Shown here piece by piece: positions 44,001-62,365 of a stretch of 64,000 nucleotides of DNA. The notes beneath the pieces are model-generated. The model saw only the letters and a list, made by a program, of their open reading frames with translations. It was not told where the DNA came from and searched no databases. The stretch lies in NCBI GenBank assembly GCA_964019415.1, contig OZ025875.1, forward strand, positions 4,649,411 through 4,713,410, in the 5' to 3' direction. The DNA is from Ianthella basta. Lineage: Eukaryota; Porifera; Demospongiae; Verongiida; Ianthellidae. Every line of letters starts with the position of its first letter. The stretch's first letter is position 1. A program made the position numbers and the translations under genes.

Positions 44001-47000
44001 GACACCTGGGCACCGTTTCCCAAAAGATCAAGCCATAAGAAGGCTGTAAACTCAATTCGTCAGATGTCATTGTGTCAACTAAGTCTACCACCATTTTCTG
44101 CTGTATGTTTAGATCACTTTGTCTAATACTTGTGTTCTCTTCCTTCAATGGGCTTGTCCATGCTTGTCTTTCAACAGCTGATGCATGTGTTCCAGCACAG
44201 TCCATTTTAGTATGTTAGGAAAGATGCTATGAGACATATACACAATTCCTGCCATCATCCTTGTGCTAAATACATTGAAACACCTTAATTCTGTCTAGTT
44301 TTCCCTGCCAGGAAGCCACAGCTATGGTTTTACGGCATCTGTCCTTCAGGGTTATCAGAGAGAATCCTCAAATGCCATCTGCACAGGCGTTTGCTTTTTA
44401 GTCACCTGCCATAGCTAACAGGAGGCTTCTCCTGGCAGCTATCATGGTCTACTCAGTGAAGAATCCAAAGAAACCACAGAATCTGGAACCAATACTTCGT
44501 TCAGCCACAGAAGCGAGAATTACGCGTAGCTATGAAGGCAAATTGATATTGTGCAAATGCATACTTAGCTTAGGGCATTTTGGTTCCATAGGCTTTCAAC
44601 AGCTGGCCTACAAAACTAAAATGTTGTGCAGTTGGTTGTGATTGATTTTGCTCTGTACTGGCTGAAAATCCGTGAAGTTCTATGATCGAGCCACATAGCA
44701 ACGAACCACTATGATAATGCATTGCAATTATACCCACTTTAGAGGTTTGCAAACCCAGTGACGTCACGGGGAGTGTGGTACTGTTCCACATTTTGGCATT
44801 GGAAATCAAGCAGAATCATCGAAAACGGTATGAAGGAGCCATTTGCGCCACCTAAAAGGTTAGGCAGTTGAATCAGGTGGGTTAATACTATTTAAATAAT
44901 GGGTCCCCCATTCACACCAGCCTTGTGCTGAAGGGGTAACCTTTAAAATACAATACAATACAATGCAAAATATTAAATGCAAAGGTTTGTTAATTGCCTC
45001 TTCAGGAGGTCCATGAGATAAGTTCCTCAGCAACCCATCGTTCTCTTGACCGATAACATTGAGTAAGACTGCTACTTGCTACTCAGCTTTCTTTCTATTG
45101 GCCTCAAAATACAGCTGCATCCACTCCAGGTACACAACAATCAACTCACTATCAGGGTCAAACGTTTCCATATCCCCAACTATCGCTGCAGCCATGTTAA
45201 CTGATGAAGACCTTTTGTGATGGACAATTTCCATGAATACGTGCGACCTTCGTCGCCACTTGTGATGTAAGCAACAGTCACCGACAACTATTAAACAGGT
45301 AATTATCCAACTAACATGATAAACAAGAGGGTGAGCAGCACTCAACACACGAGGCACGGATCACTTGAAAAATATGGAAATCTACTGAAGCTTTGGGAAA
45401 CAATGCATCTGTGCATGCACACCAGTCATGTGAATACAACCAAACACACTAAAATGTGATACTATAATGACATATTAAGGTGACGTGTGCATACACTACA
45501 GAAACACTTTCATACGTGTATTTTTCAGACAGTACTCTCTGACGTCTATTTACAAATGTGCCCAGAACAAATGGCTACATTTACATACATACATAAGAAA
45601 TGTTCACATTCCACATATTACAAACACCATGCACAAGTCAGGGGGGTTCATTAAGTTCAAAGATTCAGTTCATTTAGTTCTATTTCTTGTCTCTTTAAAG
45701 ACCATCACTAGTGTGTCAGTCAGGGCACTTATCTTGGCTCTCCACTCATCCACTCTGATGTCCTCTAGCCAGTCACCACAGTCCGGCAACTTGGCAAAAG
45801 CAGGGCCCGCTTCAGTGTGTCAGACCAACGCAAGAATGGTCTGCCTTGTCATCAGCGTAGATGGTCCCAAGGATCCTATAACAGTACAGGATCTCTGTAC
45901 CTCTTCATGTCAGTGATGTCCCCCTCTGCCTGCTTCAGCCCTACACCCATCTCCTCACAGAACCTGGATCCTGCTGGGAAGGCCACCTGTGTTAGAGCAG
46001 CCAGGAAGATGATGAACAGCACAGGGCCCTCAATCGATCCTTGGCGAACTCCCATCTGAATGGAGAACTTCTCTGATAGCTCCCCCTCATAAGAGACACA
46101 CCCCTCTATCTCAGTATGCAGGTTCTTGAGTGCAGCTACAAACTTAGGTGGGACTCCAAAACAGGTGAGGATCTTCCAAAGCAGAGCACGATCCAACAAG
46201 TCGCAGGCCTTACAAAAGTCCACAAAGACTACATACAAAGGTGTCCGCTTTTCTTGGGCCTTTTCTCAAAGAGCTGTCTCACAATGAAACTAAGATCCTC
46301 TGTCGACCGACCCGGCTGATAGCCGCACTGTGACTCTGGGATAACTGTGGGGACCAGCCATTGCATCAGGCACTTTGTGAGGATCCTGGCGAAGATCTTA
46401 CCGCCAATTGCGAGAAGTGCAATGCCTCTGTAGTTGTTTGGGTCGGTTGCTGACCCCTTCTTGTGGATAGGCACAAAGGTACAGTCAACCCACTCCTTCA
46501 TAACATCGCCCTCCTGTGCATAGTTGCACATGCACACCAGGTAATCCACCAGAGTATCACTCAGTTTCCAGATCTCATTGGAAATTCCATCCTCTCCAGG
46601 TGCCCTGATATTTTTACAGTGCCTAACTGCTTCCACCACCTCCTGTCGTGAGATTCATTCGGCCATGACGGGGGATATCCGCTCTCTGTTGTATCTCCTC
46701 TAGAACTGACTCATCCACCTGCCTGTCCTGATTGAGGACCATCTCAAAGTGGGCTTGAAAGGCTTCTGCAGTCTCCTTGGCTGTCTTGGTCCTCCTGTTT
46801 GTTCCTGGGAAGGACAGTGCCACGAATCTCCTCCTGGTAGGGCCAACAATCTCATCGAGGAGCTGGTGGACCAAGCGGGTGTTACCCTCATCAGCAGCCC
46901 ACTGCAGATGATCAGCTCTGCTTTCCCACCATTTGTCCTTCTAGACTGCTAGCTCCTTTCTGGCCTTCTCCTGTGCCTCTCTCGTATTTCTTGCCACTTT

Positions 47001-53000: not shown

Positions 53001-53146
53001 TTCTTCTGCTATTCCCAAGTGATTGTCATCTGCTAATGCAATGGCACCGAAGGGAAACAGGATTTTATGTGATCCTCAGCACTGACAACTGGATTGTCTT
53101 GGAGCAAGCTACACTGTGGTTGTATTCTTGGTTTAGTATGTACTAG
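448..53146 (+). CDS. AP5B1: AP-5 adaptor complex subunit beta-1, spliced gene, N-terminus outside the window
   Basis: AP5B1 is the beta-type large subunit of the AP-5 adaptor complex, which works with SPG11 and SPG15 in late endosome and lysosome sorting. Translated exons line up in order with my memory of human AP5B1, from the region around human LRELESCKPGLL (here [12 protein letters not shown]) to the C-terminus (human RTDDWAVLPLAG; here [12 protein letters not shown]). Exons: 448-525, 614-775, 1064-1275, 6804-6842, 9326-9400, 15970-16086, 16258-16333, 16443-16517, 16582-16729, 16810-16899, 17836-17971, 22204-22339, 24814-24861, 24933-24991, 27146-27177, 35975-36107, 41633-41753, 43773-43834, 47655-47718, 47794-47884, 52615-52649, 52711-52829, 52989-53146. 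This gives about 755 codons against about 878 in human; roughly the first 150 are missing on the left. Phases agree at all inferred junctions except exon 2 to 3 and exon 18 to 19. Alternatives: a few exon borders may be off by some bases. The family call is strong but rests on recall, not a search. Confidence 0.85.
1276..1929. other. Intron sequence with no recognised feature
   Basis: Between exon 3 and the left end of the gypsy element. Contains a short inverted repeat near 1378-1396 (CAATTGCCC / GGGGCAATTG). No coding similarity was recognised on either strand. Confidence 0.4.
1930..5530 (-). mobile_element. Ty3/gypsy LTR retrotransposon, broken (fossil)
   Basis: Minus-strand pol of a Ty3/gypsy element inside AP5B1 intron 3. 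Parts in element order are a protease-to-RT linker near 5.0-5.3 kb, reverse transcriptase about 4.1-5.0 kb (active-site YLDDI region visible), RNase H about 3.8-4.06 kb, an H2C2/integrase region about 2.7-3.8 kb (integrase core with SDNGT and the spaced [11 protein letters not shown] motif), and an integrase tail near 2.3-2.65 kb. A purine-rich tract is present on the minus strand near 2204-2215, followed by a candidate 3' LTR (about 1930-2203) opening with TGTAGTATC and holding a TATA-like TTTATAA. No matching second LTR and no clear gag were found. It is broken by several breaks and is an old to middle-aged copy. Confidence 0.85.
5531..6803. other. Intron remainder to the right of the gypsy element
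   Basis: Probably further gypsy-derived sequence up to about 6040. On the minus strand, a stretch near 6005-6035 (TATTGGCGACAAGG) resembles the leader just inside a gypsy 5' LTR, but the sequence beyond does not match the candidate 3' LTR at the other end. From 6050 to 6803 I see no gene or repeat that I can name. Confidence 0.35.
6804..6842 (+). CDS. AP5B1: AP5B1 exon 4 (13 codons)
   Basis: Acceptor TTTGCAG, peptide [13 protein letters not shown], donor GTAATA. Phase 0 at both sides. It leads directly into exon 5 ([13 protein letters not shown]), as expected from the human order. Too short to recognise on its own; position and phase support it. Confidence 0.6.
7555..7760 (+). mobile_element. 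LINE fragment, related to the LINE at 11-14 kb
   Basis: One plus-strand frame spells [11 protein letters not shown] and [19 protein letters not shown]. This aligns with [12 protein letters not shown] and [18 protein letters not shown] in the post-RT domain of the LINE at 11-14 kb. Only this piece is visible, with no endonuclease or tail. Confidence 0.6.
8683..9146. mobile_element. Long-TIR non-autonomous DNA transposon (MITE-like)
   Basis: Bases 8683-8797 (starting TAGGGTGCGACATCATACTT) and 9031-9146 are inverted copies over about 115 bases with roughly 85 percent identity by eye. Both end in TAGGGTG / CACCCTA. The 230-base centre has no coding capacity. Superfamily not determined. Confidence 0.65.
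9326..9400 (+). CDS. AP5B1: AP5B1 exon 5
   Basis: Acceptor CCTCTAG, 25 codons, donor GTGAGT. Peptide [20 protein letters not shown] onward matches human FKPQLVRLLGTAQLTLLHAM in spacing and hydrophobic pattern. Phase 0 at both ends. Confidence 0.8.
9518..10395 (+). repeat. Dispersed repeat family R4, copy 1, with internal tandem halves
   Basis: Opens with a palindromic start (TTCGAGTTAAAAAACTCG) and a GC-rich GGGCGCC tract, then runs parallel to 33665-34165 over about 550 bases. Inside it, a segment starting GCTGTACCTCGCAGGA (about 9950) is repeated in diverged form starting GCTGTATCTCGCAGAA (about 10133); each half ends in a gCGGCCATTTTACAATG- or GCCGCCATTTGCAATG-like sequence. No coding capacity. 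A (TA)n tract (10300-10320) and a second GGGGCGCC block near 10364-10381 close it. Other copies of the opening sequence lie near 36665 and 42233. Confidence 0.6.
10300..10320. repeat. (TA)n microsatellite
   Basis: About ten TA units at the right part of repeat R4 copy 1. Confidence 0.9.
10603..10782. mobile_element. Mariner-like MITE
   Basis: Ends TACAGTGCAACCTGTCTAAA and, inverted, TACAGTGGAACCTGTCTGAG; both begin at a TA dinucleotide as in Tc1/mariner insertions. Total 180 bp, non-coding. The TIRs are about 20 bases with a few mismatches. Confidence 0.65.
11065..14064 (+). mobile_element. LINE (non-LTR retrotransposon), nearly full-length but mutated
   Basis: An APE-type endonuclease begins around 11193 (CWNVRSMN) and includes [12 protein letters not shown] (11571-11606), [13 protein letters not shown] and GSDHYLV. 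A linker (11990-12530) is followed by a reverse transcriptase (about 12540-13340) with [15 protein letters not shown], a DLEKAYDKV motif near 12992-13015 and GVRQG near 13138. A C-terminal domain ends [16 protein letters not shown] near 13930. The element ends in eight TTGA units. The frame shifts at several points (for example around 11995, 12290, 12535, 12985 and 13350), and a TGA at 13264-13266 takes the first position of the catalytic xADD motif, so it is inactive. Clade not settled; the domain set fits RTE/CR1-like LINEs. Confidence 0.88.
14033..14064 (+). repeat. (TTGA)8 LINE tail
   Basis: Eight TTGA units directly after the LINE 3' region. Microsatellite tails of this kind mark the 3' end of several LINE clades. 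Confidence 0.85.
14065..15969. other. AP5B1 intron 5 remainder, no recognised gene
   Basis: About 1.9 kb with no recognisable coding similarity. Contains a CT-rich, low-complexity patch near 15310-15362. No repeat structure was identified by eye. Confidence 0.4.
15970..16899 (+). CDS. AP5B1: AP5B1 exons 6-10
   Basis: Compact cluster with short introns and fully consistent phases. Exon 15970-16086 reads [20 protein letters not shown] onward. Exon 16258-16333 reads [20 protein letters not shown] onward and ends in phase 1. Exon 16443-16517 gives [19 protein letters not shown]. Exon 16582-16729 contains [20 protein letters not shown] and [10 protein letters not shown]. Exon 16810-16899 contains [20 protein letters not shown]. 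This corresponds to the human stretch from AAFGEALFTAQDEALLLRRL through ALATLCFQASYLVACCL. The donor after 16729 is the weak GTTGAA. Confidence 0.85.
16958..17066. mobile_element. Small palindromic MITE
   Basis: Inverted ends GCTATAACCCACTTTC and GGAAGTGGGTTATAAC enclose about 75 non-coding bases; TAATTGTATTTTG and AAATACAATACGA form an inner imperfect inverted pair. It sits directly after exon 10. Confidence 0.55.
17067..17835. other. Intron 10 remainder
   Basis: No gene or repeat recognised. It includes the poly-pyrimidine tract ahead of exon 11 and possible small exons that I could not prove. Confidence 0.35.
17836..17971 (+). CDS. AP5B1: AP5B1 exon 11
   Basis: Acceptor ATATCAG, phase 2 in, 45 full codons after the shared one, donor GTAAGT. 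Peptide [20 protein letters not shown] onward corresponds to human LCWHLQMLAKVADGDAQSAT. Placing the start at 17836 rather than 17845 keeps the frame from exon 10. Confidence 0.8.
18305..18725 (+). pseudogene. Myb/SANT-like DNA-binding protein of the Harbinger element, frameshifted
   Basis: The start [20 protein letters not shown] is the tryptophan-led first helix of the Myb/SANT-like domain used by PIF/Harbinger accessory proteins. After a frame change near 18405 it continues as [20 protein letters not shown] and [17 protein letters not shown], the conserved third part, followed by an acidic serine-rich tail. In active elements this protein helps the transposase bind the element ends. The frame change suggests a few inserted bases in the GTGCATG region. 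Confidence 0.75.
18731..19231 (-). pseudogene. PIF/Harbinger transposase, N-terminal part only
   Basis: Minus-strand frame from 19231 ([13 protein letters not shown], arginine-rich, ending in [11 protein letters not shown]) followed, across a likely small intron at about 18940-19005, by [20 protein letters not shown] and [20 protein letters not shown]. The latter is the typical WW and EDW/NFRVxxxTF block before the DDE core of Harbinger transposases. The DDE nuclease itself is absent. Confidence 0.7.
19378..19855 (-). mobile_element. LINE RT fragment, same family as 11-14 kb
   Basis: The minus strand contains [17 protein letters not shown], matching the RT motif of the LINE at 11-14 kb, with [14 protein letters not shown] near [14 protein letters not shown] of that element. 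Only about 480 bases, with several frame changes. It abuts the right end of the Harbinger element. Confidence 0.7.
20090..20930 (+). mobile_element. LINE RT fragment (Jockey/CR1/L2-like)
   Basis: Plus-strand RT with [19 protein letters not shown] and catalytic FVDDT (20299-20313), then [20 protein letters not shown] and, near 20700-20900, [17 protein letters not shown] and the [15 protein letters not shown] thumb-type segment. A stop interrupts the frame near 20478 and a 121-bp tandem duplication follows. 5'-truncated and dead. Confidence 0.78.
20459..20700 (+). repeat. 121-bp tandem duplication inside the LINE fragment
   Basis: ACTGTCAGCCCTTAATG at 20459 and ACTGTCAGACCTTAATG at 20580 begin two copies, which stay nearly identical to the AGGAAAGTT of each copy. 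Spacing is 121 bases. The two differ at only a few bases, so the duplication is fairly young. Confidence 0.85.
21165..22030 (+). repeat. Dispersed repeat family R1, copy 1, with internal subrepeats
   Basis: Contains at least three diverged subrepeats of about 150-190 bases with the shared core GCTGGGCAAGTTTGGTGGCAA, each followed by GGGACAAATGTTCTGCCC-like sequence. The block also matches 37255-37880 (shared start GGTTRGYGGGTGAAAT and end CTCCTCTTGATAAATATAGA / CTCCTCTGTATTTATATAGA). No coding capacity; possibly a non-autonomous element. Confidence 0.65.
22204..22339 (+). CDS. AP5B1: AP5B1 exon 12
   Basis: Acceptor TTTAACAG, phase 0 in, phase 1 out at donor GTATAC. Peptide [20 protein letters not shown] onward and [16 protein letters not shown] match human LNFLQAAAAHCTNWDLQQGL and LRVCRALLRAG. 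Confidence 0.85.
22340..23207. other. Intron 12, left part, nothing recognised
   Basis: No gene, repeat or element identified by eye. Confidence 0.35.
23208..23332 (+). repeat. Dispersed repeat family R2, uninterrupted copy
   Basis: Starts ATATATACAGTGCACGTTGC and matches 53189-53277 plus 53714-53765, the two halves of a copy split by the 53-kb hammerhead element. The same start motif recurs near 23697-23745. Confidence 0.6.
23556..23597. repeat. Perfect 16-bp inverted repeat
   Basis: Arms CCCTGAGTGCAAGTAG (23556-23571) and its exact complement (23582-23597) around a 10-base loop. It lies in a patch dense in GTGCAAGT words (23498-23745). Confidence 0.85.
23750..24813. other. Intron 12, right part, nothing recognised
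   Basis: About 1.06 kb of AT-rich sequence without recognised coding or repeat structure, ending in the exon 13 acceptor. Confidence 0.35.
24814..24991 (+). CDS. AP5B1: AP5B1 exons 13-14
   Basis: Exon 24814-24861 reads [15 protein letters not shown] (human LVDLLQVLARQLED) between acceptor ATTCACAG and donor GTGAGG, phase 1 in and out. Exon 24933-24991 reads [19 protein letters not shown] (human DGRDHARLYYILLAHLAAPK) and ends in phase 0 at an unusual donor, GTTATT. The DRARFYHL block is one of the clearest family matches in the gene. Confidence 0.85.
25885..26044. repeat. 57-bp inverted repeat inside a larger foldback
   Basis: Arm 25885-25941 (GGCAACTTGTCAAAACAAGA...) pairs with 25988-26044 with few mismatches; the 46-base loop is GC-rich (GTGGCGCCGCTGACGGCACC). 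Probably a small element or a hairpin formed during insertion. Confidence 0.75.
25919..26203 (-). CDS. Unrecognised 94-residue frame in the foldback
   Basis: Starts [20 protein letters not shown] and contains [17 protein letters not shown], then ends shortly after entering the 57-bp inverted repeat. The duplicated start in the opposite arm suggests element coding sequence rather than a host gene. No catalytic motif is visible. Confidence 0.3.
   Translation of the reverse strand: MCLDRMSVHRPLAFEVDAVNMIVLDYMTIAMWNRLRGKKSQASAQPGPIEVTEGNLLKQDTINIITVCRPLKESGAVSGATSFKPYDISKVYGQ
26150..26868. mobile_element. Long foldback: two inverted arms of about 210 bp around a 300-bp centre
   Basis: Arm A (about 26150-26360) and arm B (about 26655-26868) are inverted copies. 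Both include CACTCATCCTGTCCAAACAC, GCCCATGCATGAGAAA and AGAAAGGTCCCATCGCT. Each arm, read outward, starts a short frame beginning [11 protein letters not shown] or [11 protein letters not shown]. Arm A continues on the minus strand to about 25919 as [21 protein letters not shown] do not recognise the protein. This may be two head-to-head copies of one DNA transposon or a foldback element. Confidence 0.65.
27146..27177 (+). CDS. AP5B1: AP5B1 exon 15 (small)
   Basis: Acceptor TTATTACAG, peptide [10 protein letters not shown], donor GTGGCT. Phase 0 in and phase 2 out are exactly what exons 14 and 16 need. The hydrophobic pattern fits human SLAAPALASSLV. Supported mainly by phase and position. 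Confidence 0.6.
27178..27982. other. Intron 15, left part, nothing recognised
   Basis: No gene or mobile element recognised on either strand. Confidence 0.35.
27983..28681. mobile_element. DNA transposon relic with 57-bp terminal inverted repeats
   Basis: Left end TAGGATACTCGAAGTCCAAT (27983 onward) and right end (inverted, from 28681) TAGGATACTCGATGTCCAAT continue in parallel through GGGTATGCAACTAGGATGAA. Both ends begin at TA, which could be a TA target duplication. About 700 bp, with no recognised transposase. Confidence 0.65.
28682..29064. other. Intron stretch between two elements
   Basis: Overlapping short open frames exist on both strands (28606-29095) but none shows a known motif. 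Confidence 0.3.
29065..32148 (-). mobile_element. Ty3/gypsy LTR retrotransposon with LTR remnants, broken (fossil)
   Basis: Minus-strand element. LTR-like sequences open with TGTAGTGGACACACAACAAA at 32148 and again at 29252. The two share about 115 bases (32034-32148 and about 29129-29252) with a modest number of differences, so the insertion is not ancient. Between them lie, in element order, a protease/RT linker near 31.8-31.95 kb, reverse transcriptase about 31.0-31.7 kb ([12 protein letters not shown]), RNase H about 30.65-31.03 kb ([15 protein letters not shown]), an integrase zinc-binding and core region about 29.97-30.6 kb, and a C-terminal region to about 29.45 kb ([12 protein letters not shown]). 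gag was not recognised. It is broken with several breaks. It is a different lineage from the copy at 2-5.5 kb, judging by pol sequence and LTR. Confidence 0.88.
32293..32690 (+). mobile_element. Harbinger-derived MITE, deletion relative of the 18-kb element
   Basis: Left end TGTTTACACTAGCACAATAT and following GGTACGATATTGTACCG words parallel 18060-18120. ATATCTCGGCCCACTTCTGC parallels ATATCTCGGTCCACTTCTCC (18166 onward). The right end carries ACCGAACCGTACTG and an inverted GTATACACTATGC that resembles the left end. About 400 bp, with no coding sequence. Confidence 0.65.
32770..33365. mobile_element. Penelope-like element 3' fragment with internal inversion
   Basis: On the minus strand (33165 down to about 32990) a GIY-YIG C-terminal segment reads [17 protein letters not shown] and [17 protein letters not shown], followed towards 32770 by the terminal CTGACGAAGGCC...GGTCAAAATGTC motif. 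On the plus strand (33205-33360) the preceding GIY-YIG segment reads [11 protein letters not shown], then in another frame [20 protein letters not shown]. The two pieces overlap at a shared GGGATGAGC-AATGGTATTGC. So one 3' end is present as an inverted piece joined to a direct piece. Not intact. Confidence 0.65.
33665..34165 (+). repeat. Dispersed repeat family R4, copy 2
   Basis: Starts AAGTACTTCAAGTTGAAAAC and follows 9518-10090 closely, including GAACTCGAACTACTTGCTAG, the GGCCTGAAAGATACAT segment and GGGGCTGTACCTTGCAGGAG. The neighbouring 33330-33430 holds a small extra copy of the TACCAAACTATCAAA piece. Confidence 0.65.
34166..35000. repeat. Two diverged related blocks in intron 15
   Basis: Blocks near 34235-34375 and 34840-34960 share GACTGGCTGT...TCCTTTGTAG and TTTACAATGACATA. 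The first also has an open frame ([20 protein letters not shown]) after an AG, but its repetition argues against an AP5B1 exon. Family unknown. Confidence 0.4.
35100..35310. repeat. Dispersed repeat family R3, copy 1
   Basis: Shares GTAACCACGGTAACATCGAA, AATGTGATAAAACCGCA and flanking words with 51815-51920 (copy 2). Non-coding. Confidence 0.5.
35436..35554. repeat. 28-bp inverted repeat
   Basis: ACCATGATGAACCACATTGC (35435 onward) and its near-complement ending GTGGTTCATCATAGTG at 35554 enclose about 63 bases. It may be the TIRs of a tiny element. Confidence 0.6.
35975..36107 (+). CDS. AP5B1: AP5B1 exon 16
   Basis: Acceptor TCTTTTAG, phase 2 in, phase 0 out at donor GTGAGT. Peptide [20 protein letters not shown] onward and [17 protein letters not shown]; corresponds to the human region around PLPVLKLQPEALEP. 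It forms the start of the C-terminal beta-sandwich part. Confidence 0.78.
36668..37045 (+). repeat. Dispersed repeat family R5, uninterrupted copy
   Basis: Begins with the R4-like start (TTCAAGTTAAAAAAAACTCG) and continues through GTGACGTCTATTTAGGAATG and GTAGCTAAACAGTGGCAGCA to GGCTGCTCGTACCCC. The same order is found at 45512-45590 and 47375-47560, where a LINE separates the two halves. Confidence 0.55.
37255..37880 (+). repeat. Dispersed repeat family R1, copy 2
   Basis: Parallel to 21165-22030, with the shared core GCTGGGCAAGTTTGGTGGCA at about 37793 and ends as in copy 1. Diverged and partly rearranged. Confidence 0.6.
37980..39732 (+). mobile_element. Penelope-like element with GIY-YIG endonuclease, not intact
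   Basis: The plus strand shows the RT N-terminal region ([20 protein letters not shown], the typical PLE KxYGLPKIHK-type motif), weaker palm pieces (38360-38650) and a GIY-YIG endonuclease near 39255-39360 ([29 protein letters not shown]). The 3' end carries CTGATGA (39673) with a perfect GGCCACA/TGTGGCC stem and AAAACGTC. A foreign CG-rich piece, about 38820-38960, may be a separate insertion. The RT is incomplete. Confidence 0.8.
39673..39705 (+). ncRNA. Degenerate hammerhead-like motif at a Penelope-like 3' end
   Basis: CTGATGA, then A, a 7-bp perfect stem with a GCA loop, then AAAAC and GTC. Compared with the hammerhead core, the GAAA box reads AAAA and there is an extra base beside stem II, so self-cleavage is doubtful. 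The layout matches the minimal hammerheads known from Penelope-like elements. Confidence 0.5.
39733..41017. other. Intron 16, mostly unrecognised
   Basis: No gene recognised. Near 40404 a TTAACCCATTGCACACAAAG sequence resembles the left ends of the TTAA elements at 48763 and 53769, but no right end was found. A (C)n/T-rich patch lies at 40425-40445. Confidence 0.35.
41018..41030 (+). repeat. 13-bp target-site duplication, left
   Basis: GACTTGTATACAT, identical to 41296-41308 on the other side of the solo retrozyme-type copy. Confidence 0.85.
41031..41295 (+). mobile_element. Solo retrozyme-type insertion (foldback form) with 13-bp TSD
   Basis: About 105 bases (41031-41136) are an inverted copy of the 365-bp hammerhead unit's end (GAGAGGTCGGTTCAATGCAG onward, through CCAGCCTTCTATACTGAAG). 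They are followed by about 160 bases in direct orientation from the 3' half of the ribozyme (CAAAACAGCTGTC) to GATTAGCCCTTGTT. The insertion is flanked by GACTTGTATACAT at 41018-41030 and 41296-41308. The ribozyme core itself is lost in this copy. Confidence 0.82.
41633..41753 (+). CDS. AP5B1: AP5B1 exon 17
   Basis: Acceptor TGTTTACAG, phase 0 in, phase 1 out at donor GTGAGT. Peptide [20 protein letters not shown] onward and [15 protein letters not shown]; corresponds to human EALEPIYSLELRFRVEGQLY. The donor lies 458 bases beyond the solo retrozyme-type insertion. Confidence 0.82.
42233..43650 (+). mobile_element. Penelope-like element, second copy, not intact
   Basis: After an R4-like start (42233-42285), a plus-strand RT palm region reads [20 protein letters not shown] (motif with GSPVS), [10 protein letters not shown] in place of the usual [23 protein letters not shown] and [20 protein letters not shown]. 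It is followed by GIY-YIG-type sequence with [20 protein letters not shown] and [20 protein letters not shown] (43150-43445). The 3' end holds CTGACGATGACA...TGTCGAAAC. Different enough from the 38-kb copy to be another subfamily. Frame changes and the altered active site mean it is not functional. Confidence 0.83.
43610..43645 (+). ncRNA. Hammerhead-like motif at the second Penelope-like 3' end
   Basis: CTGACGA (43610-43616), stem GACA/TGTC with a loop, then GAAAC (43636-43640). The expected GTC cleavage triplet reads ATT, so it is probably inactive. The CUGANGA and GAAA boxes are intact. Confidence 0.5.
43773..43834 (+). CDS. AP5B1: AP5B1 exon 18
   Basis: Acceptor CTTTTAG, phase 1 in (completing GTT), peptide [20 protein letters not shown], donor GTGGGG. 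The next visible exon needs phase 1, whereas this one ends in phase 0. A small exon or a different border is therefore missing between 43834 and 47655. Confidence 0.65.
43835..45078. other. Intron 18, left part
   Basis: A 125-codon minus-strand frame (44205-43828, starting [16 protein letters not shown]) has no recognised domain and is left uncalled. Near 44935-44970 a GGGGTAACCTTTAAAATAC plus (AATAC)n stretch looks like the tail of a LINE, but no upstream LINE coding is visible. Confidence 0.3.
45079..45200 (-). mobile_element. Ty3/gypsy gag N-terminus fragment (fossil)
   Basis: A minus-strand frame with [20 protein letters not shown] matches the standard start of Ty3/gypsy gag proteins in animals (pattern FxPDxExxxxYLExxxxYFxAN). 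Only this start is present; no pol or LTR pair was seen nearby. Broken, age unknown. Confidence 0.6.
45512..45590 (+). repeat. R5 repeat, left half of an interrupted copy
   Basis: GACGTCTATTTACAAATGTG here matches GACGTCTATTTAGGAATGTG near 36758. The matching right half lies at 47375-47560. Confidence 0.5.
45600..47375 (-). mobile_element. LINE fragment inserted in an R5 repeat
   Basis: Minus strand. From 47375 a pre-RT region has [33 protein letters not shown] and [17 protein letters not shown] follows, with [56 protein letters not shown] and [20 protein letters not shown] (46630-46250), then [20 protein letters not shown] and, in another frame near 45860, IYADDKADH. No 5' endonuclease. Several frame changes (near 46640, 46235 and 45875). 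3' end at about 45600. Inactive. Confidence 0.8.
47247..47271. repeat. C-rich homopolymer run
   Basis: A run of C interrupted by single T bases within the LINE. A likely source of length error in assembly. Confidence 0.85.
47655..47884 (+). CDS. AP5B1: AP5B1 exons 19-20
   Basis: Exon 47655-47718 reads [20 protein letters not shown] and ends in phase 2 at GTAAGT. Exon 47794-47884 reads [20 protein letters not shown], then [10 protein letters not shown], ending at GTGAGT. Human LDVHALYTTPTGLTCHAHLP and FVNFADLFLPFP align here, so these encode the C-terminal appendage-like part. Confidence 0.83.
47885..48758. other. Intron 20, left part
   Basis: No gene recognised. An imperfect inverted pair (CTACCTGGCAAATCTACTTG...near 48270, and GTCTGGTAGACTTGTCAG near 48340, both with CCCACTTCC/GGAAGTGGG) encloses the ACCATTACATAAGTTTTGCATAA region and may be a tiny MITE. 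Confidence 0.4.
48763..49409. mobile_element. piggyBac-like non-autonomous element with TTAA flanks
   Basis: Flanked by TTAA at 48759-48762 and 49410-49413. Ends CCCATTAGCCGCGGA and, inverted, CCCTTTAACCGCGGA. The TTAA target and CCC ends fit piggyBac. A relative sits at 53769-54357, sharing an ATTAAAATGGCAGCGCA-type segment near one end. Small open frames (minus 49373-49116; plus 48803-49078) show no transposase core. Confidence 0.72.
49440..49885 (+). mobile_element. LINE 3' end fragment with (GTAT)n tail
   Basis: The plus-strand frame ends with [20 protein letters not shown], then [20 protein letters not shown] and [11 protein letters not shown] and a stop near 49757, typical of LINE C-termini (xxxGHxxR...DRxxWRxxV). 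About 110 bases further on, a GTATGTATGTATGTA run ends the copy. Confidence 0.68.
49886..50719. other. Intron 20, middle part
   Basis: A 113-codon minus-strand frame (50410-50069, starting [10 protein letters not shown]) is not recognised. Near 50540-50605 two tandem copies of a TTGTGGATATACATACxxAAGC-type unit create a zinc-ribbon look-alike peptide, which I treat as repeat, not gene. Confidence 0.3.
50720..51030 (-). mobile_element. LINE RT fragment
   Basis: The minus strand reads [20 protein letters not shown] from about 51012, the RT motif (QGDPLGPLLFCLTIH in other LINEs). The remainder to 50720 is degraded. A hairpin (51016-51053) starts at the point where the LINE match ends. Confidence 0.6.
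51016..51053. repeat. Perfect 13-bp inverted repeat
   Basis: CACCCCCAGATGT (51016-51028) and ACATCTGGGGGTG (51041-51053) around 12 bases. Confidence 0.85.
51054..52614. other. Intron 20, right part
   Basis: Holds R3 repeat copy 2 (about 51650-51920, GTAACACAGAAGAATGTGAT and AAAACCACACGATTCAC). No gene was recognised. A frame after TTCACTGTAG at 52211 ([20 protein letters not shown]) resembles an exon but is not needed by the phases on either side. Confidence 0.4.
52615..53146 (+). CDS. AP5B1: AP5B1 exons 21-23 and stop codon
   Basis: Exon 52615-52649 reads [11 protein letters not shown]. Exon 52711-52829 reads [20 protein letters not shown], then [15 protein letters not shown]. Exon 52989-53146 reads [20 protein letters not shown], then [20 protein letters not shown] and LYSWFSMY before TAG at 53144-53146. 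Phases 2 and 1 match. Human YCVAIHLPPDSKLLLRL and ALRTDDWAVLPLAGDYLRGL align with the last exon. No clear AATAAA was seen close downstream. Confidence 0.88.
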
Positions 53147-53188: not shown

Positions 53189-53277
53189 TATTATATACAG
53201 TGCAAGTTGCAAAATGCAAGGGTGAAGCCAAAAATAATCAATGCAATATTTTGTAGTAAGTTATAACATTTTGGTAG
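53189..53277 (+). repeat. R2 repeat, left half, interrupted by the retrozyme-type insertion
   Basis: TATACAGTGCAAGTTGCAAA matches 23213 onward. The copy resumes at 53714 (TTTGGCTGTCCTGCAGCACA against CTTTGGGCACCCTGTGGCAC at 23285). Confidence 0.6.
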
Positions 53278-53700
53278 AGAGGTCAGTTCATTGCAGCAAG
53301 CCACTGCAACGGCTAGGCCGGGCTAGGTTGAACAAAGGCTAATCAGGCTAGTCACTCTTGTATCTCCCACCAGTGAAACACTTGTGGTTTCAACAAGGGC
53401 GAATATTAATGGGAGGAAGGCTAAGTCATTAATATTCGCTCTTGTTGAAACCACAAGTGTTTCACTGGTGGGGGATACAAGAGTGACTAGTCATCCTGCA
53501 TTCCATCAGTACGCCACACTGATGAGCCCCAATCAGGGCGAACCAGCTGTCTGTGGCTCTTCCATCTTTGTAGGATAACTAGTAATGGGGGGGGAGGGCG
53601 ATCACTGGTTGCCATCAATAGGGCTCCGGCCCCCCAGCCTCCTGAAACACTTCGGTGTAGAAGGCTGGAAGGCGTAATAACCAGTGATTATCCTTTGTTC
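53278..53700 (+). mobile_element. Solo retrozyme-type insertion (foldback form) with 13-bp TSD
   Basis: Left part 53278-53411 is inverted relative to the 365-bp hammerhead unit and right part 53427-53700 is direct. The two form 64-bp arms (53348-53411 and 53427-53490) around a 15-base spacer. The direct part carries a hammerhead (53513-53557). Flanking AACATTTTGGTAG occurs at 53265-53277 and 53701-53713; the first bases of the right copy could also belong to the element, so the duplication is 10-13 bp. Confidence 0.85.
53513..53557 (+). ncRNA. Hammerhead ribozyme, type I, solo copy
   Basis: Stem I GCCACA (53513-53518) pairs with TGTGGC (53552-53557). Core CTGATGA at 53519, stem II GCCC/GGGC with loop CAATCA, then GAAC, minimal stem III CAGCTG and GTC with expected cleavage after 53551. 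The base after GAA is C instead of A, which breaks the conserved A-U pair next to the cleavage triplet and should weaken activity. Confidence 0.85.
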
Positions 53701-53768
53701 AACATTTTGGTAGTTTGGCTGTCCTGCAGCACAGACTATTGATAAGATTAGACAGCTTGTAAGGTTAA

Positions 53769-55330: not shown

Positions 55331-55994
55331 CAAAGGGGATAGTTGCCCATTCAAAATTCAGTACATGGCACAGTACAGTTTTAAACGCATTTTCTAATGC
55401 ACATTAGCAAGTGAAAGAGTCTTTTCCTCCCTATCTCTAATGCATTACTTTAAATGTTGCCAAAGACTTTCATGCATTACAGAAGAGAGGGGGGGGGGAT
55501 TGTCTCCCCATCTCTGGTGCATGGCTCTAAATGATCACAAACTATATTTCTCAAGCCGATTAGCCAAAGGGAGTCGTGCCCACTCAAACTCCGGATGACT
55601 CTCAATATTGCAAACAGGTTTTCTAGTTCCCATTAGCAAGGAGGGTCTTGCCCACAAAAAATTTTAGTGGGTGACTCCAAATGTTGCAGAAGACGTTTCT
55701 CATGCCCATTAGAGAGGGGGGGGGCGGCCATACCAACCCATACTCCTATGGGTGACTCCAAAGGATGCAAGCTACTTTTGAAGTCAAGTACTTGAGTTTG
55801 GCTGAGAAAGACTCCCCCTTGCATATCGGCTTTAGAAAAGTCGTGTGCAGCATTTGAAGTCAAACACTGCAGTTTGGAATAGTAAGACTCATTTTTTACT
55901 TACTTGCATGATAAAAGCTTTTGCAATATTCCGAGTCATTCACAGGAGTTTTGGTGGGTAAGAGTCCCCCATTGCTAATGGGCATTAGAAAGAC
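55331..55994. repeat. Approximately 80-bp satellite, left block with an orientation switch
   Basis: Up to about 55765 the units run as GTGACTCCAAATGTTGCAGA...CTCATGCCCATTAG. From about 55770 they run in the complement orientation (TTTGAAGTCAAGTACTTGAG, AAAGTCGTGTGCAGCATTTG). Units are strongly diverged. Confidence 0.7.
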
Positions 55995-56274
55995 GATCAC
56001 TGGTTGCCATCAATAGGGCTCCGGCCCACCAGCCTTCTGAAACACTTCGGTGTAGAAGGCTGGTAGGCGTAATATCTAGTGATTAGCCTTTGTTCAACTT
56101 AGTCCGGCCTGGCCGTTGCAGTGGCTTACTGCAATGAACCGACCTCTCAACAATCCCGCGCAAGTCACGCTCATGACTTTGCCTTCCCCATTAATATTCA
56201 CTCTTGTTGAAACCACAAGTGTTTCACTGGTGGCGAATACAAGAGTGACTAGTCATCCTGCATTCCATCAGTAC

Positions 56275-56319
56275 GCCACACCGATGAGCCCCAATCAGGG
56301 CGAACCAGCTGTCTGTAAC
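56275..56319 (+). ncRNA. Hammerhead ribozyme, array unit 1, core mutated
   Basis: Core reads CCGATGA instead of CTGATGA, and the 3' side of stem I reads TGTAAC instead of TGTGGC. Stem II and GTC are kept. Probably inactive. Confidence 0.75.
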
Positions 56320-56639
56320 TCTTCCTTTTTTGTAAAATGACTAGTAAAGGGGGAGGGCGATCACTGGTTGCCATCAATAGGGCTCCGGCCCCCCAGCCTT
56401 CTGAAACACTTCGGTGTAGAAGGCTGGTAGGCGTAATATCTAGTGATTAGCCTTTGTTCAACCTAGCCCGGCCTGGCCGTTGCAGTGGCTTACTGCAATG
56501 AACCGACCTCTCAACAATCCCGCGCAAGTCACGCTCATGACTTTGCCTTCCCCCATTAATATTCACTCTTGTTGAAACCACAAGTGTTTCACTGGTGGCG
56601 AATACAAGAGTGACTAGTCATCCTGCATTCCATCAGTAC

Positions 56640-56684
56640 GCCACACTGATGAGCCCCAATCAGGGCGAACCAGCTGTCTGTGGC
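56640..56684 (+). ncRNA. Hammerhead ribozyme, array unit 2
   Basis: GCCACA/TGTGGC stem I, CTGATGA, stem II GCCC/GGGC, GAAC in place of GAAA, stem III CAGCTG, and GTC with cleavage expected after 56678. Confidence 0.83.
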
Positions 56685-57003
56685 TCTTCCATCCTTGTAG
56701 GATGACTAGTGAAGGGGATGGGCGATCACTGGTTGCCATCAATAGGGCTCCGGCCCACCAGCCTTCTGAAACACTTCAGTGTAGAAGGCTGGTAGGCGTA
56801 ATATCTAGTGATTAGCCTTTGTTCAACCTAGCCCGGCCTGGCCGTTGCAGTGGCTTACTGCAATGAACCGGCCTCTCAACAATCCCGCGCAAGTCACGCT
56901 CATGATTTTGCCTTCCCCATTGATATTCACTCTTGTTGAAACCACAAGTGTTTCACTGGTGGCGAATACAAGAGTGACTAGTCATCCTGCATTCCATCAG
57001 TAC

Positions 57004-57048
57004 GCCACACTGATGAGCCCCAATCAGGGCGAAACAGCTGTCTGTGGC
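57004..57048 (+). ncRNA. Hammerhead ribozyme, array unit 3, fully canonical core
   Basis: Stem I 57004-57009 with 57043-57048 (GCCACA/TGTGGC); CTGATGA 57010-57016; stem II 57017-57020 with 57027-57030, loop CAATCA; GAAA 57031-57034; minimal stem III within CAGCTG; cleavage triplet GTC ending at 57042. All conserved core positions are present. Minimal stem III is the form known from metazoan retrozymes and Penelope-like elements, thought to cleave best as dimers or with stem I loop contacts. Confidence 0.92.
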
Positions 57049-57368
57049 TCTTCCATCTTTGTAGGATGACTAGTGAAGGGGAAGGGCGATCACTGGTTGC
57101 CATCAATAGGGCTCCGGCCCACCAGCTTCCTGAAACACTTCGGTGTAGAAGGCTGGTAGGCGTAATATCTAGTGATCAGCCTTTGTTCAACCTAGCCCGG
57201 CCTGGCCGTTGCAGTGGCTTACTGCAATGAACCGACCTCTCAACAATCCCGCGCAAGTCACGCTCATGACTTTACCTTCCCCCATTAATATTCACTCTTG
57301 TTGAAACCACAAGTGTTTCACTGGTGGCGAATACAAGAGTGACTAGTCATCCTGCATTCCATCAGTAC

Positions 57369-57413
57369 GCCACACTGATGAGCCCCAATCAGGGCGAACC
57401 AGCTGTCTGTGGC
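57369..57413 (+). ncRNA. Hammerhead ribozyme, array unit 4
   Basis: As unit 2: CTGATGA at 57375, GAAC in place of GAAA, stems I and II intact, cleavage expected after 57407. Confidence 0.83.
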
Positions 57414-57609
57414 TCTTCCATCTTTGTAGAATGACTAGTGAAGGGAAAGGGCGATCACTGGTTGCCATCAATAGGGCTCCGGCCCCCCAGCCTCCTGAAA
57501 CACTTTGGTGTAGAAGGCTGGTAGGCGTAATATCTAGTGATTAGCCTTTGTTCAACCTAGCCCGGCCTGGCCGTTGCAGTGGCTTACTGCAATGAACCGA
57601 CCTCTCAAC

Positions 57610-58371
57610 TTTCTTTTTGTCTATGACCATGCTAAAAATTTTGGAGTAATGCACTTGAGTTTGGGTAAAAAGACTCCCTTCTAACTCACTGGCATGATAT
57701 AAGTTGTTTGCAACATTTGAAGTCATGCACTTCAGACTAGGTAGGTAAGACTCCACCCTTACTAGTGAGCATGTGAAAAGTAGTTTGCACCGTTTGGATT
57801 CGTGCACTTGAGTTGCACTTGAATGGATAAGACTCCGCACAAGATTCTGGGAATGAGAAAAGTACTTAACAGCATTTGAAGTCATGCACTTAGATTTGAG
57901 TAGGTAAAACACCCTCCTTACTTACAGGCATGAGAAGAGAAGTATGCAACCTTTGGATTTATGTACTTGAGTTTGGCTGGGTAAGACTACACCCAAACTA
58001 ATGAGCATAAAAAAGTCGTGTGCAGCATTTGAAGTCATGCACTAAAGTTTGGCTAGGTAAGACTCCTTCTTTACTTACTGGCATGAGACAAGTAGTTTGC
58101 AACGATTGGAGTCATACCCTTGAGTTTTTCTAGGTAAGACTCCACCCTTGCTAATGGGCACGAGAAAAGTCGTTTGCAACATGTGAAGTCATGCGCTTCA
58201 GTTAGGGTGGGCGATACTTCTCCCTTTCTAATGATCAAGAGAAAAGTCGTTTGCAAAATTCAAAGTCATGCACTTGAGTATGGCTGAATTTGACTCTCCC
58301 CTTACTAATAAGCATTACAAAAGGCGTGTGCATCATTTAAAGAAATCCACTGGAATTTGGGTAGGTGGGTA
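57610..58371 (+). repeat. Approximately 80-bp satellite, second block
   Basis: Units of the form GGTAAGACTCCxCCCTTACTAATGxGCATGAGAAAAGTCGTTTGCAACATTTGAAGTCATGCACTTGAGTTTGGG (described here only by its order of words), same orientation as 55770-55994. Interrupted at 58372 by an inserted element. Confidence 0.8.
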
Positions 58372-59011: not shown

Positions 59012-61790
59012 CTGTGGGTAAGACTCCGCAGTACTAATGAGCATGAGAAATGTCGTTTGCAATATTTGAAGTCGTGCACTTCAGTTTGGCTCGGTAAAAC
59101 TCTCCCTTGCTTATGAGCGTGAGAAAAGTCGTGTGTAGCATTTGAAGTCAAGTACTGCAGTTTGGGTAAGTAGGACTCTCTCCTTACTGCCATGAGAAAA
59201 ACTTGAGTTTGGGTGAGTAACACTATTTCCTTACTATAATATGAGCATGAGAAAGGTCGTTTGAAAGATTTAAAGCAATAGATTTGAGTTTGGTGGAGTA
59301 ATACTACCCACTTACATATAGACATGAGAAAGTTGTGTTCAGCATTTGAAGTCATGCACTGGAGTTTGAGTAGTTAAGGCTTTCTCCTTACTGGCAGGAG
59401 AAGAGTAGTTTGCATAATTTGGAGTTAGGCATGCACTTGATTTTTGGTGGGTAAGAATCCACCCTTACAGAGACTTTCCATGACGTTGCAGAAATTTTAG
59501 AAACCGATGACAGTCACGTAGATCAATCGCAAAGCCGGAGTCGCCAAATTCTGCCTACTGGTTGGCCCATGTGACTGTCTCACGGCTTGCCGATTTTTGG
59601 TGTACGTTGCTAAGATTTCGCAATCTCCTATACTATAGAACATTAGAAAGTTGTTTGCAAGATTTAAAGTTATGCACTTGAGTTTGGGTGGGTAAGGCTC
59701 CATCCTAACTTACTGGCATTAGGCGAGGAGTTTGTAATGGTTTGGGGTCATGCACTTTAGATTGGGTGGATAAGACTGCCCACTTACTAATGAGTCTGAC
59801 AAAAGTCGTTTGCAACATTTGAAGTAATGCACTTGTGTTTGCCTGTGTAAGACTCTCCCCTTGCTTATGGACACGAGAAAAATCTTGTGCAGCATTTGAA
59901 GTCAAGCATTGCATTTTGGATAGGTAAGTCTTCCTTCTTCCTTTCCGGAACGAAAAAAATGGTTTGCAATATTCAGAGTCATGCACAAGTTTGGTGGGTA
60001 AGACCCCCCCTTTGCTAATGTCCATGAGAGAAGTTGTTTGCATCATGTGAAGTCATGCACTTCAGTTTCGGTGGGCAATACTCCTCCTTGCCTATGTTCA
60101 TAAGAAAAGTAGTCTGTAACATTTTGAGTCACGGACTAGATTTAGGCAGAGTTAGACTCACCCTTGTTCATGGGCATTAAGAAACTTTGTTTGCAACTTT
60201 TGAAGTCGCGCACTTGAGTTTGAGTAAGTAACATTCTCTTCTTACTAACTGGCATGAGAAACGTCTTTTGCAACATTCAGAGTGTTGCACTTGAGTTTGG
60301 GCAGGTAAGACTGCCCCCTAACTAATGGGCCTTGGAAACGTCGTGTGCAGTCATGCATTTCAGTTTGTGTAAGTATTACTTTCACCTAACATGTACGAGA
60401 AGAGGAGTTTGCAACGTCTAAAGTCATGCACTGGAGTTTGAGAGTGTAAGACTCCCCTCTTGCTAACGAGCACGAGAAAAGTCGTTTTCAACATGTGAAG
60501 TCATGCAGTTCGGTTTGGGTTGGCTGAACTTTCCCCTTGCTAAAGGTTATTAGAAGAGTAGTTAAAAAAATTTGGAGTAATGCACTTAAGTTTTGGTAGG
60601 TAAGACTCCCTCCTTACTGCCAGGAGAGGAGGAGTTTACAAAGTTTGAAGTCATGCACTTGAGTTTGGGTAGGTAAGACTCTCTCCTAACTTAATGGCGA
60701 AAAGAAAGGCGATTGCAACATTTGTGATAATGCAATTGCATATGGGTGAATGAAAGACTCCACCCTTACTAATAATCATGAGAAACGTCGTTTGCAACAT
60801 GTGAAGTTATGCACTTTAGTTTTGCTGGGAAAAACTTCACCCTGCTAATGTGCACGAGAAAAGTCGTGTGCTGCATTTGGAGTCGAGCACATGAGTTTAT
60901 TTGCTATTGGTCATGAGAAATGCTGTTTCCAAATTTAGAGTCACAGACTAAATGTTGGGTGGGTTAGAATCTTCGTTGCTCCAGGGCATTATACTTGAGT
61001 TTAAGTGGGTAAGACTCCCCACTTGCTAATGAGAATGAGGTAAGTCGCATGCAACTTTTGAAGTTATGCACTAAAGTTTGGATGGGTAAGACTTTCCTTT
61101 TACTAATGAGCACGAGAAAGGCCGTTTTCAACAGTTGGAATCATGGCTTTAAGTTTGGGTGGGTTAGACCCCCCCCTTACTAATGATCATGAGAAACATG
61201 GTTAACAATTATTGAAGTCTTGCACTGGAGTTTGGTTGGATAAGACTCCCCCCTTGCTTATGTATGTGAGAAAAGTTGTGTGGAGTATTGAAGTCAATCA
61301 CTTGAGATTGAATAGGAAAGATTTTCTTTTTACTGACATGAGAAGAAAAGTTTGCAATGTTTGGAGTCATGCACTTGAGTTTGGCTTGCTTATTGGTATG
61401 AGGTAAGTCGCTTGCAACATTTGTAGTCAATCACTTGATTTTGAGTAGGTATGACTCCCACTTGCTTGTTTGCATGGGAAAAGTCGTTGGAGTCATGCAC
61501 TGAAGTTTGGGTGGGCAAGACGCCCCCATTGCTAATGGTCGTGAGAAAAGTAGTTTATAACAATTGGAGTTACAAACTGGAATTTGAGTGGGTTAACTTT
61601 CTCCTTACTTACTGGCATGAGAAAAGTTGTTTGCAAGATTTCTAGTTATGCACGTCGTTTGCAAAATTTGTGAAAATGAGTCAAGCACTTGAGTTGGGGT
61701 AGGTAAGACGCCCTTCTAATTTACTGCCATGAGAAAAGACGTCTGCAACATTTGGAGTAATGCATTTAATTTTAAGTAGGCATGTGCAGT
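59012..61790 (+). repeat. Approximately 80-bp satellite, main block
   Basis: About 34 diverged units in one orientation, recognised by recurring GAGAAAAGTCGTTTGCAACA, AAGTCATGCACTTGAGTTTG and GGTAAGACTCC words. A short non-satellite patch (about 59480-59640, with AACCGATGACAGTCACGTAG) interrupts it. No coding function. Confidence 0.85.
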
Positions 61791-62365
61791 ACGAATGTAA
61801 TAAATGTTGCAAACGACTTTTCACATGCCAATTGACAAGGGGTTAGTCTTACCCCAAATGTTGTAAAGACTTTCCCCCTATTAATTAGCAAGGGAGTAGC
61901 CATGCTCACCCAAACTCAAGTGCATGGCTCCACATGCTGCTAACGACTTTCCTCGATCTATAAGCAATGGGGGTCTTACCTACCCAAACCCAAGTGCACG
62001 AATATTTAGTCTAGTCTTTCCCACCTAAACTCAAGTACATGACTACAAATGTTTCAAATGACTTTACTCATGCCAGTAAGGCAGGAGTCTTACCTGACCA
62101 AACTCAAGTGCTTGACTCCAAATGCTGCACACGACTTTTCTCGTGCTCATTATTAAGGGAGAAGTCTTACCCAACTAAACAACTGCATGAATCCAAATGT
62201 TGAAAATAACATTTCTCATGCTCATTATTGAGGAGTCTTGCCCACCCAAGATTGATTCTCCCCTACCAAACACAAGTGCCTGATTTTAAATGTTGCAATT
62301 TACGTTTCTAATGCAAATGAGCATGTGAAAGTCTAACCAACCTATAATTTGGTTTGAGACTCTAA
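61791..62365 (-). repeat. Same satellite, inverted orientation
   Basis: From about 61800 the units read as the complement (AATGTTGCAAACGACTTTTC, GTCTTACCxACCCAAACTCAAGTGCATGA-type). The switch point is within about 61780-61810. Confidence 0.82.

Follow-up and report, generated by a model that had tools for sequence, protein, structure and literature searches.

The window, that is the whole 64 kb stretch of Ianthella basta DNA analysed here, holds a direct tandem array downstream of AP5B1, two dispersed relatives of the array unit, and two sequences that we take to be decayed Penelope-like elements (PLEs); their coordinates are collected in Table 1. The array had been placed next to AP5B1 in an earlier note on this DNA, and Pfam AP5B1_C matches in exon-like pieces upstream of the array bear this out: the piece at about 52.99-53.14 kb gives 3.4e-5 by itself, and a joined form that adds a piece at about 52.7 kb gives 1.4e-8. 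The stop codon of the gene lies at 53144-53146 and the array begins some 2.85 kb further downstream. Since array and gene lie on one strand, read-through could transcribe the ribozyme-forming sense of the array.

Table 1. Features of the array, its dispersed copies (c53 and c41) and the presumed PLE remnants, in window coordinates
Feature	Position	Strand	Evidence
Decayed PLE remnant 1: RT-like pieces, then GIY-YIG endonuclease piece	37948-39477	+	
Minimal PLE-type hammerhead directly after remnant 1, one change from strict pattern	39673-39705	+	relaxed motif scan
c41 left TSD (GACTTGTATACAT)	41018-41030		
c41 arm ending at site A	41031-41139	-	unit x2 520-404, 85%
c41 arm ending at site B	41137-41295	+	unit x2 304-465, 88%
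c41 right TSD	41296-41308		
Decayed PLE remnant 2: RT-like piece followed by GIY-YIG-like piece	42246-43444	+	
Minimal PLE-type hammerhead directly after remnant 2, one change from strict pattern	43610-43643	+	relaxed motif scan
c53 left TSD (AACATTTTGGTAG)	53265-53277		
c53 arm ending at site A (tailed), without hammerhead region	53278-53429	-	blastn: unit x2 522-451 and 259-180
c53 arm ending at site B (tail-less)	53427-53703	+	unit x2 196-469, 93%
c53 hammerhead, C at 15.1	53513-53557		RF00163 27.8 bits, below gathering
c53 right TSD, first three bases overlapping site B	53701-53713		
Tandem array, 4.4 units of 364-365 bp	55994-57609	+	Tandem Repeats Finder, unit alignment
Unit 1 hammerhead, decayed	56275-56319	+	RF00163 19.5 bits, E 0.21, below gathering
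Unit 2 hammerhead, C at 15.1 (GAACC), nominally cleaved after 56678	56640-56684	+	RF00163 27.8 bits, below gathering
Site B (TCAAC at unit position 101), coordinates for unit 3	56823-56827	+	motif positions, units 3 and 4
Site A (TCAAC at unit position 154), coordinates for unit 3	56876-56880	+	
Unit 3 hammerhead, type I, complete core, predicted cleavage after 57042	57004-57048	+	RF00163 38.7 bits
Unit 4 hammerhead, C at 15.1, nominal cleavage after 57407	57369-57413	+	RF00163 27.8 bits, below gathering

The array comprises units of 364, 365, 364, 365 and 158 nt, all in direct orientation, for which Tandem Repeats Finder gives a period of 365 and 96% matches. The low divergence among units remarked upon in the earlier note is confirmed, the four full units being 95.6-97.8% identical in pairs. 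They abut directly, with no internal region or coding sequence in between, and no ORF of 150 aa was found in the array, which has open frames of 82-85 aa. An autonomous PLE would have an ORF with RT and GIY-YIG between its repeats; none is present here and, as the units abut directly, the element is not classed as one. The GC content of the two units measured is 51.4-51.5%. Exact-pattern scans for the unit in collections of viral contigs and genome contigs, as distinct from animal collections, gave 0 matches.

At its right end (...CTCTCAAC) the array stops at unit position 158, and its last five bases, 57605-57609, are the TCAAC motif referred to below as site A; the left end is CGATCACTGG. 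No exact target-site duplication (TSD) of at least 6 bp was found within 4 nt of the array ends. Of the 26 variable columns in the unit alignment, 22 have one differing unit, as a joint arrival of near-identical units would predict. At unit sites 35 and 43, however, all four combinations are found among the five units, a conflict that calls for exchange, recurrent change or a mixed template. The template of the array units may have been a circle, possibly one and the same for all of them, or a multimer.

Several other repeats and mobile element fragments were seen in the window. Degenerate tandem repeats of 75-77 bp lie downstream of the array at 57692-58342, 59037-59185 and 62077-62233 (Tandem Repeats Finder), the first stretch being also readable with a period of 153 bp, and by eye a similar sequence is present directly upstream of the array. 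The same program reports two tandem copies of a 121-bp unit at 20453-20700 (96% matches). On the minus strand, a LINE-type RT piece at 46232-46654 matches RVT_1 at 2.6e-5 (24.4 bits against a cut-off of 29.6), and open frames at 2729-5046 and 29965-31573 are presumably of Gypsy type, resembling integrase and reverse transcriptase in motifs recognised by eye.

Ribozymes and predicted fold of the unit

Four complete type I hammerheads at a spacing of 364-365 bp were claimed in the earlier note, which proposed a covariance model as a check. With the Rfam model RF00163 (gathering score 34 bits; region scan at E up to 1), a type I hammerhead is matched in all four full units, in the same phase and on the plus strand, at exact unit spacing and in all four expected places. 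The spacing therefore stands, but completeness does not: in whole-window and region scans alike, unit 3 is the only one of the four to pass the gathering score (38.7 versus 34 bits). In units 1, 2 and 4, C replaces A at position 15.1, producing a C.U mismatch with U16.1 where stem III begins. Further damage is seen in unit 1, which has CCGATGA in place of CTGATGA and a stem I broken by mismatches (TGTAAC). Both states of position 15.1 recur in the dispersed copies, with A in c41 and C in c53, and the intact ribozyme of unit 3 may represent either a back-mutation or a retained state. With core changes in three of its four ribozymes, the array may by now have lost efficient self-processing.

Motif scans of both strands of the window recovered one of the four units (unit 3) with a strict pattern and three (2, 3 and 4, unit 1 being missed) with a relaxed pattern, which also picked up the copy at 53.5 kb. 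Neither pattern had a match on either strand of 60 dinucleotide-preserving shuffles, and chance is thereby ruled out for the hammerheads.

In the predicted fold, stem I consists of GCCACA/UGUGGC and, past an internal loop, a helix of another 11 bp (ACUAGUCAUCC/GGAUGACUAGU); stem II has four pairs. Stem III, ACAGCUGU, is a loop-less, self-complementary palindrome of 4 bp, so that a lone copy would hardly close but two copies could pair with one another. Folded as circles, two units gave -132.8 kcal/mol (z = -5.95) and -142.5 kcal/mol (z = -6.15), each z being taken from 100 shuffles, with 60-63% of bases predicted to be paired. The antisense of one unit is also predicted to be structured (z = -5.27).

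A strict-pattern type I hammerhead is also found on the minus strand at 35627-35660, in an open frame before GTAAGT, with a stem I of GTGCTG/CAGCAC, a stem II of GGAG/CTCC and a palindromic stem III, AAGGCCTT. The strict scan behind it matched none of 60 shuffles or 60 simulated windows, and Rfam gave no match at this position at E up to 1.

Dispersed foldback copies and their ends

BLAST of the array against the window, in agreement with a profile search, reveals two dispersed relatives of the unit at 41.0-41.3 and 53.3-53.7 kb, both of which the earlier note had missed. These copies are the most informative part of the window as regards mechanism. Both c53 (53278-53703) and c41 (41031-41295), but not the array, are head-to-head foldbacks, and both are flanked by perfect TSDs (13/13 bp), which are thus present in two of the three insertions. 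Among 20,000 random position pairs used as a control, one gave a match of at least 13 bp and five gave matches of at least 10 bp. PLE machinery would be expected to insert into AT-rich targets with ATT as the cut motif; at the two sites here, each TSD is A/T at 9 of its 13 positions, with ATT inside one and directly after the other. The larger copy starts about 130 nt downstream of the AP5B1 stop codon and may lie within the 3' untranslated region. The plus arm of c41 retains only the 3' part of the hammerhead, in which the core G preceding 15.1 is changed to A, and Rfam has no hammerhead match there at E up to 1.

TCAAC occurs exactly twice per unit, as counted in units 3 and 4, the two sites being 53 nt apart, and in each of the two foldbacks one arm terminates at A and its partner at B. 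The minus arms of both end at unit position ~155, in site A; the plus arms end at 101 in c41 and at 102-105 in c53, where three bases can be assigned either to the unit or to the TSD. Five of the six outer ends of the three insertions are therefore inside the two motifs, the sixth, the left end of the array, being at neither. Because our attention was drawn to TCAAC by the ends themselves, this is a pattern to test and not a blind prediction. In the predicted fold of two units, sites A and B are mostly unpaired (0.60-0.96 per base).

In both foldbacks the plus (B) arm contains unit sequence that is missing from the minus (A) arm, which argues that the B arm was not simply copied from the cDNA of the A arm. 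Snapback of a single cDNA was rejected on these grounds. For c53, a later deletion in the A arm might alternatively account for the difference; in c41 the B arm simply reaches further. The internal switch points of the foldback differ between the two copies.

At 53348-53493, about 200 nt past the AP5B1 stop codon, the c53 foldback would form a long RNA hairpin with near-perfect pairing, a possible source of dsRNA. Matches to miRNA families at 53374-53464 (best mir-76, 39.7 bits with a gathering score of 75) were rejected as a by-product of the foldback.

Penelope-like elements and the proposed mobilisation of the unit

The first presumed PLE remnant includes a piece, 39112-39477, with a Pfam GIY-YIG match above the cut-off (3.6e-5); its two RT-like pieces, for which Pfam returned 0 families, we named from motifs recognised by eye. 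The second we likewise take to be a PLE by eye. NCBIfam matches to its first piece are sub-cut-off RT matches only, among them a weak one to group II RT (8.6e-4, far below the cut-off), and a PDB search with this piece produced two matches, at E 0.22 and 0.71, to unrelated proteins. Pfam detected neither RT nor GIY-YIG in this remnant, with 0 families in one piece and a sub-cut-off match to LRV_FeS (0.0021) in the other, and its identity thus rests on motifs recognised by eye and on the hammerhead behind it. The strict form of the minimal PLE-type hammerhead pattern is absent from the window; the relaxed form, which finds a hammerhead directly after each remnant, had 0 matches on both strands of 60 simulated windows. 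Rfam shows no hammerhead at 43610-43643 at E up to 5. Since neither remnant has any blastn likeness to the 365-bp unit, neither is claimed as its helper.

The assignment to the retrozyme class made in the earlier note is well supported by the unit size, the type I hammerhead in each unit, the predicted self-pairing and the dispersed copies with TSDs. The array is best read as a partly decayed member of the animal retrozyme class, most of its ribozymes being damaged, and its unit is likely to be a new family. Members of this class would also be expected to form tandem repeats of about 150-450 bp, to lack an LTR, a primer binding site and a polypurine tract, and to give linear as well as circular RNAs of unit length in tissues. 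Animal retrozymes are described as having units of 170-400 nt, GC below 50% and, when present, TSDs of more than 4 bp (PMC7229834). The resemblance to the metazoan non-LTR retrozymes of coral, mussel and axolotl in that account extends to the type I hammerhead, the tandem units, here of 365 bp, the highly self-paired predicted circle, the TSDs of more than 4 bp and the PLEs nearby; the differences are the unit GC of 51%, a property that we treat as descriptive of the class rather than defining, and the single intact ribozyme among four (PMC7229834). The hammerhead satellites of newt and axolotl (330-350 bp), compared here by their description, share the unit size and a very short palindromic stem III, with which the amphibian motifs act as dimers (PMC7229834). 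Plant LTR retrozymes are also non-autonomous elements with hammerheads (PMC4918200), but according to the summary in PMC7229834 their hammerheads are of type III, and they have LTRs and TSDs of 4 bp. No description of head-to-head foldbacks ending at two TCAAC sites was found in the available part of PMC7229834, nor one of retrozyme copies with PLE tails in the literature searched, as far as its text was available.

PLEs were already proposed in 2020 as a strong candidate for the mobiliser of animal retrozymes because both have type I hammerheads, occur as tandems and are found together (PMC7229834). Penelope insertions in Adineta vaga are completed by an inverted pLTR, and one of the inverted pLTRs may carry a 31-bp tail; TSDs of 8-10 bp are quoted, but not every insertion has one (PMC3846280). 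The Anolis PLE protein PAc cuts and extends both DNA strands in vitro; its reverse transcription begins at two neighbouring internal positions of the RNA, and the tail corresponds to the segment that separates these positions (PMC11167929). The foldbacks are like these PLEs in their inverted copies, single tail, short TSDs and two adjacent apparent RT start sites downstream of the hammerhead (PMC3846280, PMC11167929). Hammerhead mutants of PAc still insert in vitro, which fits the presence of C at 15.1 in c53 and in three of the four full array units (PMC11167929). Unlike the published PLEs, the tail is of 53 nt (30-40 published) and the TSD of 13 bp (8-10 quoted), the unit lacks an RT or endonuclease ORF, and its hammerhead has a 4-bp palindromic stem III where PLEs have the minimal kind.

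The reading that we favour, with a probability of roughly 0.72, is that the unit is a non-autonomous, non-LTR retrozyme inserted in trans by a PLE protein. From the units, hammerhead motifs, ends, duplications, foldbacks and PLE remnants seen in the window, we infer the following course of transcription, cleavage, circularisation and enzyme action. Transcription, possibly by read-through from AP5B1, would span tandem units, and type I hammerheads, paired two by two via the palindromic stem III, would cut the transcript. By analogy with published animal retrozymes, a host ligase would then close the unit-length RNA. A PLE protein that combines RT with a GIY-YIG endonuclease would take up this RNA in trans, nick both strands of AT-rich DNA, and prime reverse transcription from both nicks at the internal start sites A and B, each TCAAC. 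Joining of the two cDNAs would leave a head-to-head foldback in a 13-bp duplication, with one arm 53 nt longer on the outside as the tail, while extended copying in direct orientation, with a circle or a multimer as template, could yield arrays such as that at 55994-57609. Priming at both nicks would fit the arms observed if the templates were separate, multimeric or circular. Counted against this explanation are the array's want of a TSD in the exact search, its left end at neither A nor B, the GC above that described for retrozymes, the one intact hammerhead in four together with C15.1 in c53 and three of the four full units, the lack of blastn likeness between either PLE remnant and the unit, the lengths of tail and TSD, and a foldback sample of n = 2.

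An ordinary satellite, grown by unequal exchange or through circular DNA and with hammerheads left over from an old insertion, would suit several observations: no TSD was found around the array, satellite repeats of 75-77 bp adjoin it, three of its four hammerheads are damaged, and all four combinations of sites 35 and 43 are present in five units. We nevertheless consider this unlikely, as the array stops on its right at site A, where two independent TSD-flanked copies also have an end, 22 of the 26 variable columns have a single differing unit, and the dispersed copies would be left unexplained. Similarly improbable is a reading of the unit as pLTR of an autonomous PLE not yet described, with the copies as solo or tandem pLTRs. 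Solo pLTRs have been described (PMC3846280), and the hammerhead, the downstream RT start sites, the tail and the inverted copies are all parts of a PLE pLTR, but the units abut without coding sequence in between, and the two PLE remnants of the window have different hammerheads and no blastn match to the unit.

Mobilisation by a LINE through twin priming, which also yields 5' inversions and TSDs, appears less probable again. A LINE-type RT piece is indeed present in the window (46232-46654, minus strand, below the RVT_1 cut-off), yet no poly(A) is seen at the ends inspected, the outer ends of both foldbacks are at A and B, and the arms overlap on the unit, so that a single linear monomer cannot template both. 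The asymmetry of the ends, one at A and one at B, 53 nt apart, tells against a foldback DNA transposon (MITE) with terminal inverted repeats; although inverted arms and TSDs would be expected of it, the switch points differ between the two copies and the array is direct, not inverted, leaving very little probability for such an origin.

The foldbacks add insertion anatomy to the earlier PLE proposal. This anatomy supports PLEs as the mobiliser and makes the proposal testable, without settling it, from two foldbacks and one array end. A broader view, which we hold only tentatively, is that animal retrozymes are stripped-down satellites of PLEs, with a two-site RT start signal, priming on both nicked strands from templates that are separate, multimeric or circular, and no obligatory cleavage. 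The last element is suggested by the C15.1 variant, which c53 and most of the array have in common although they are separate insertions; cleavage may have been unneeded for insertion, or may have stopped since. Should the same hold in other copies and hosts, the helper would have a name and the spread of a protein-less RNA of a few hundred bases would be explained, while the pile-up of ends at two sites would offer a simple test for any animal genome.
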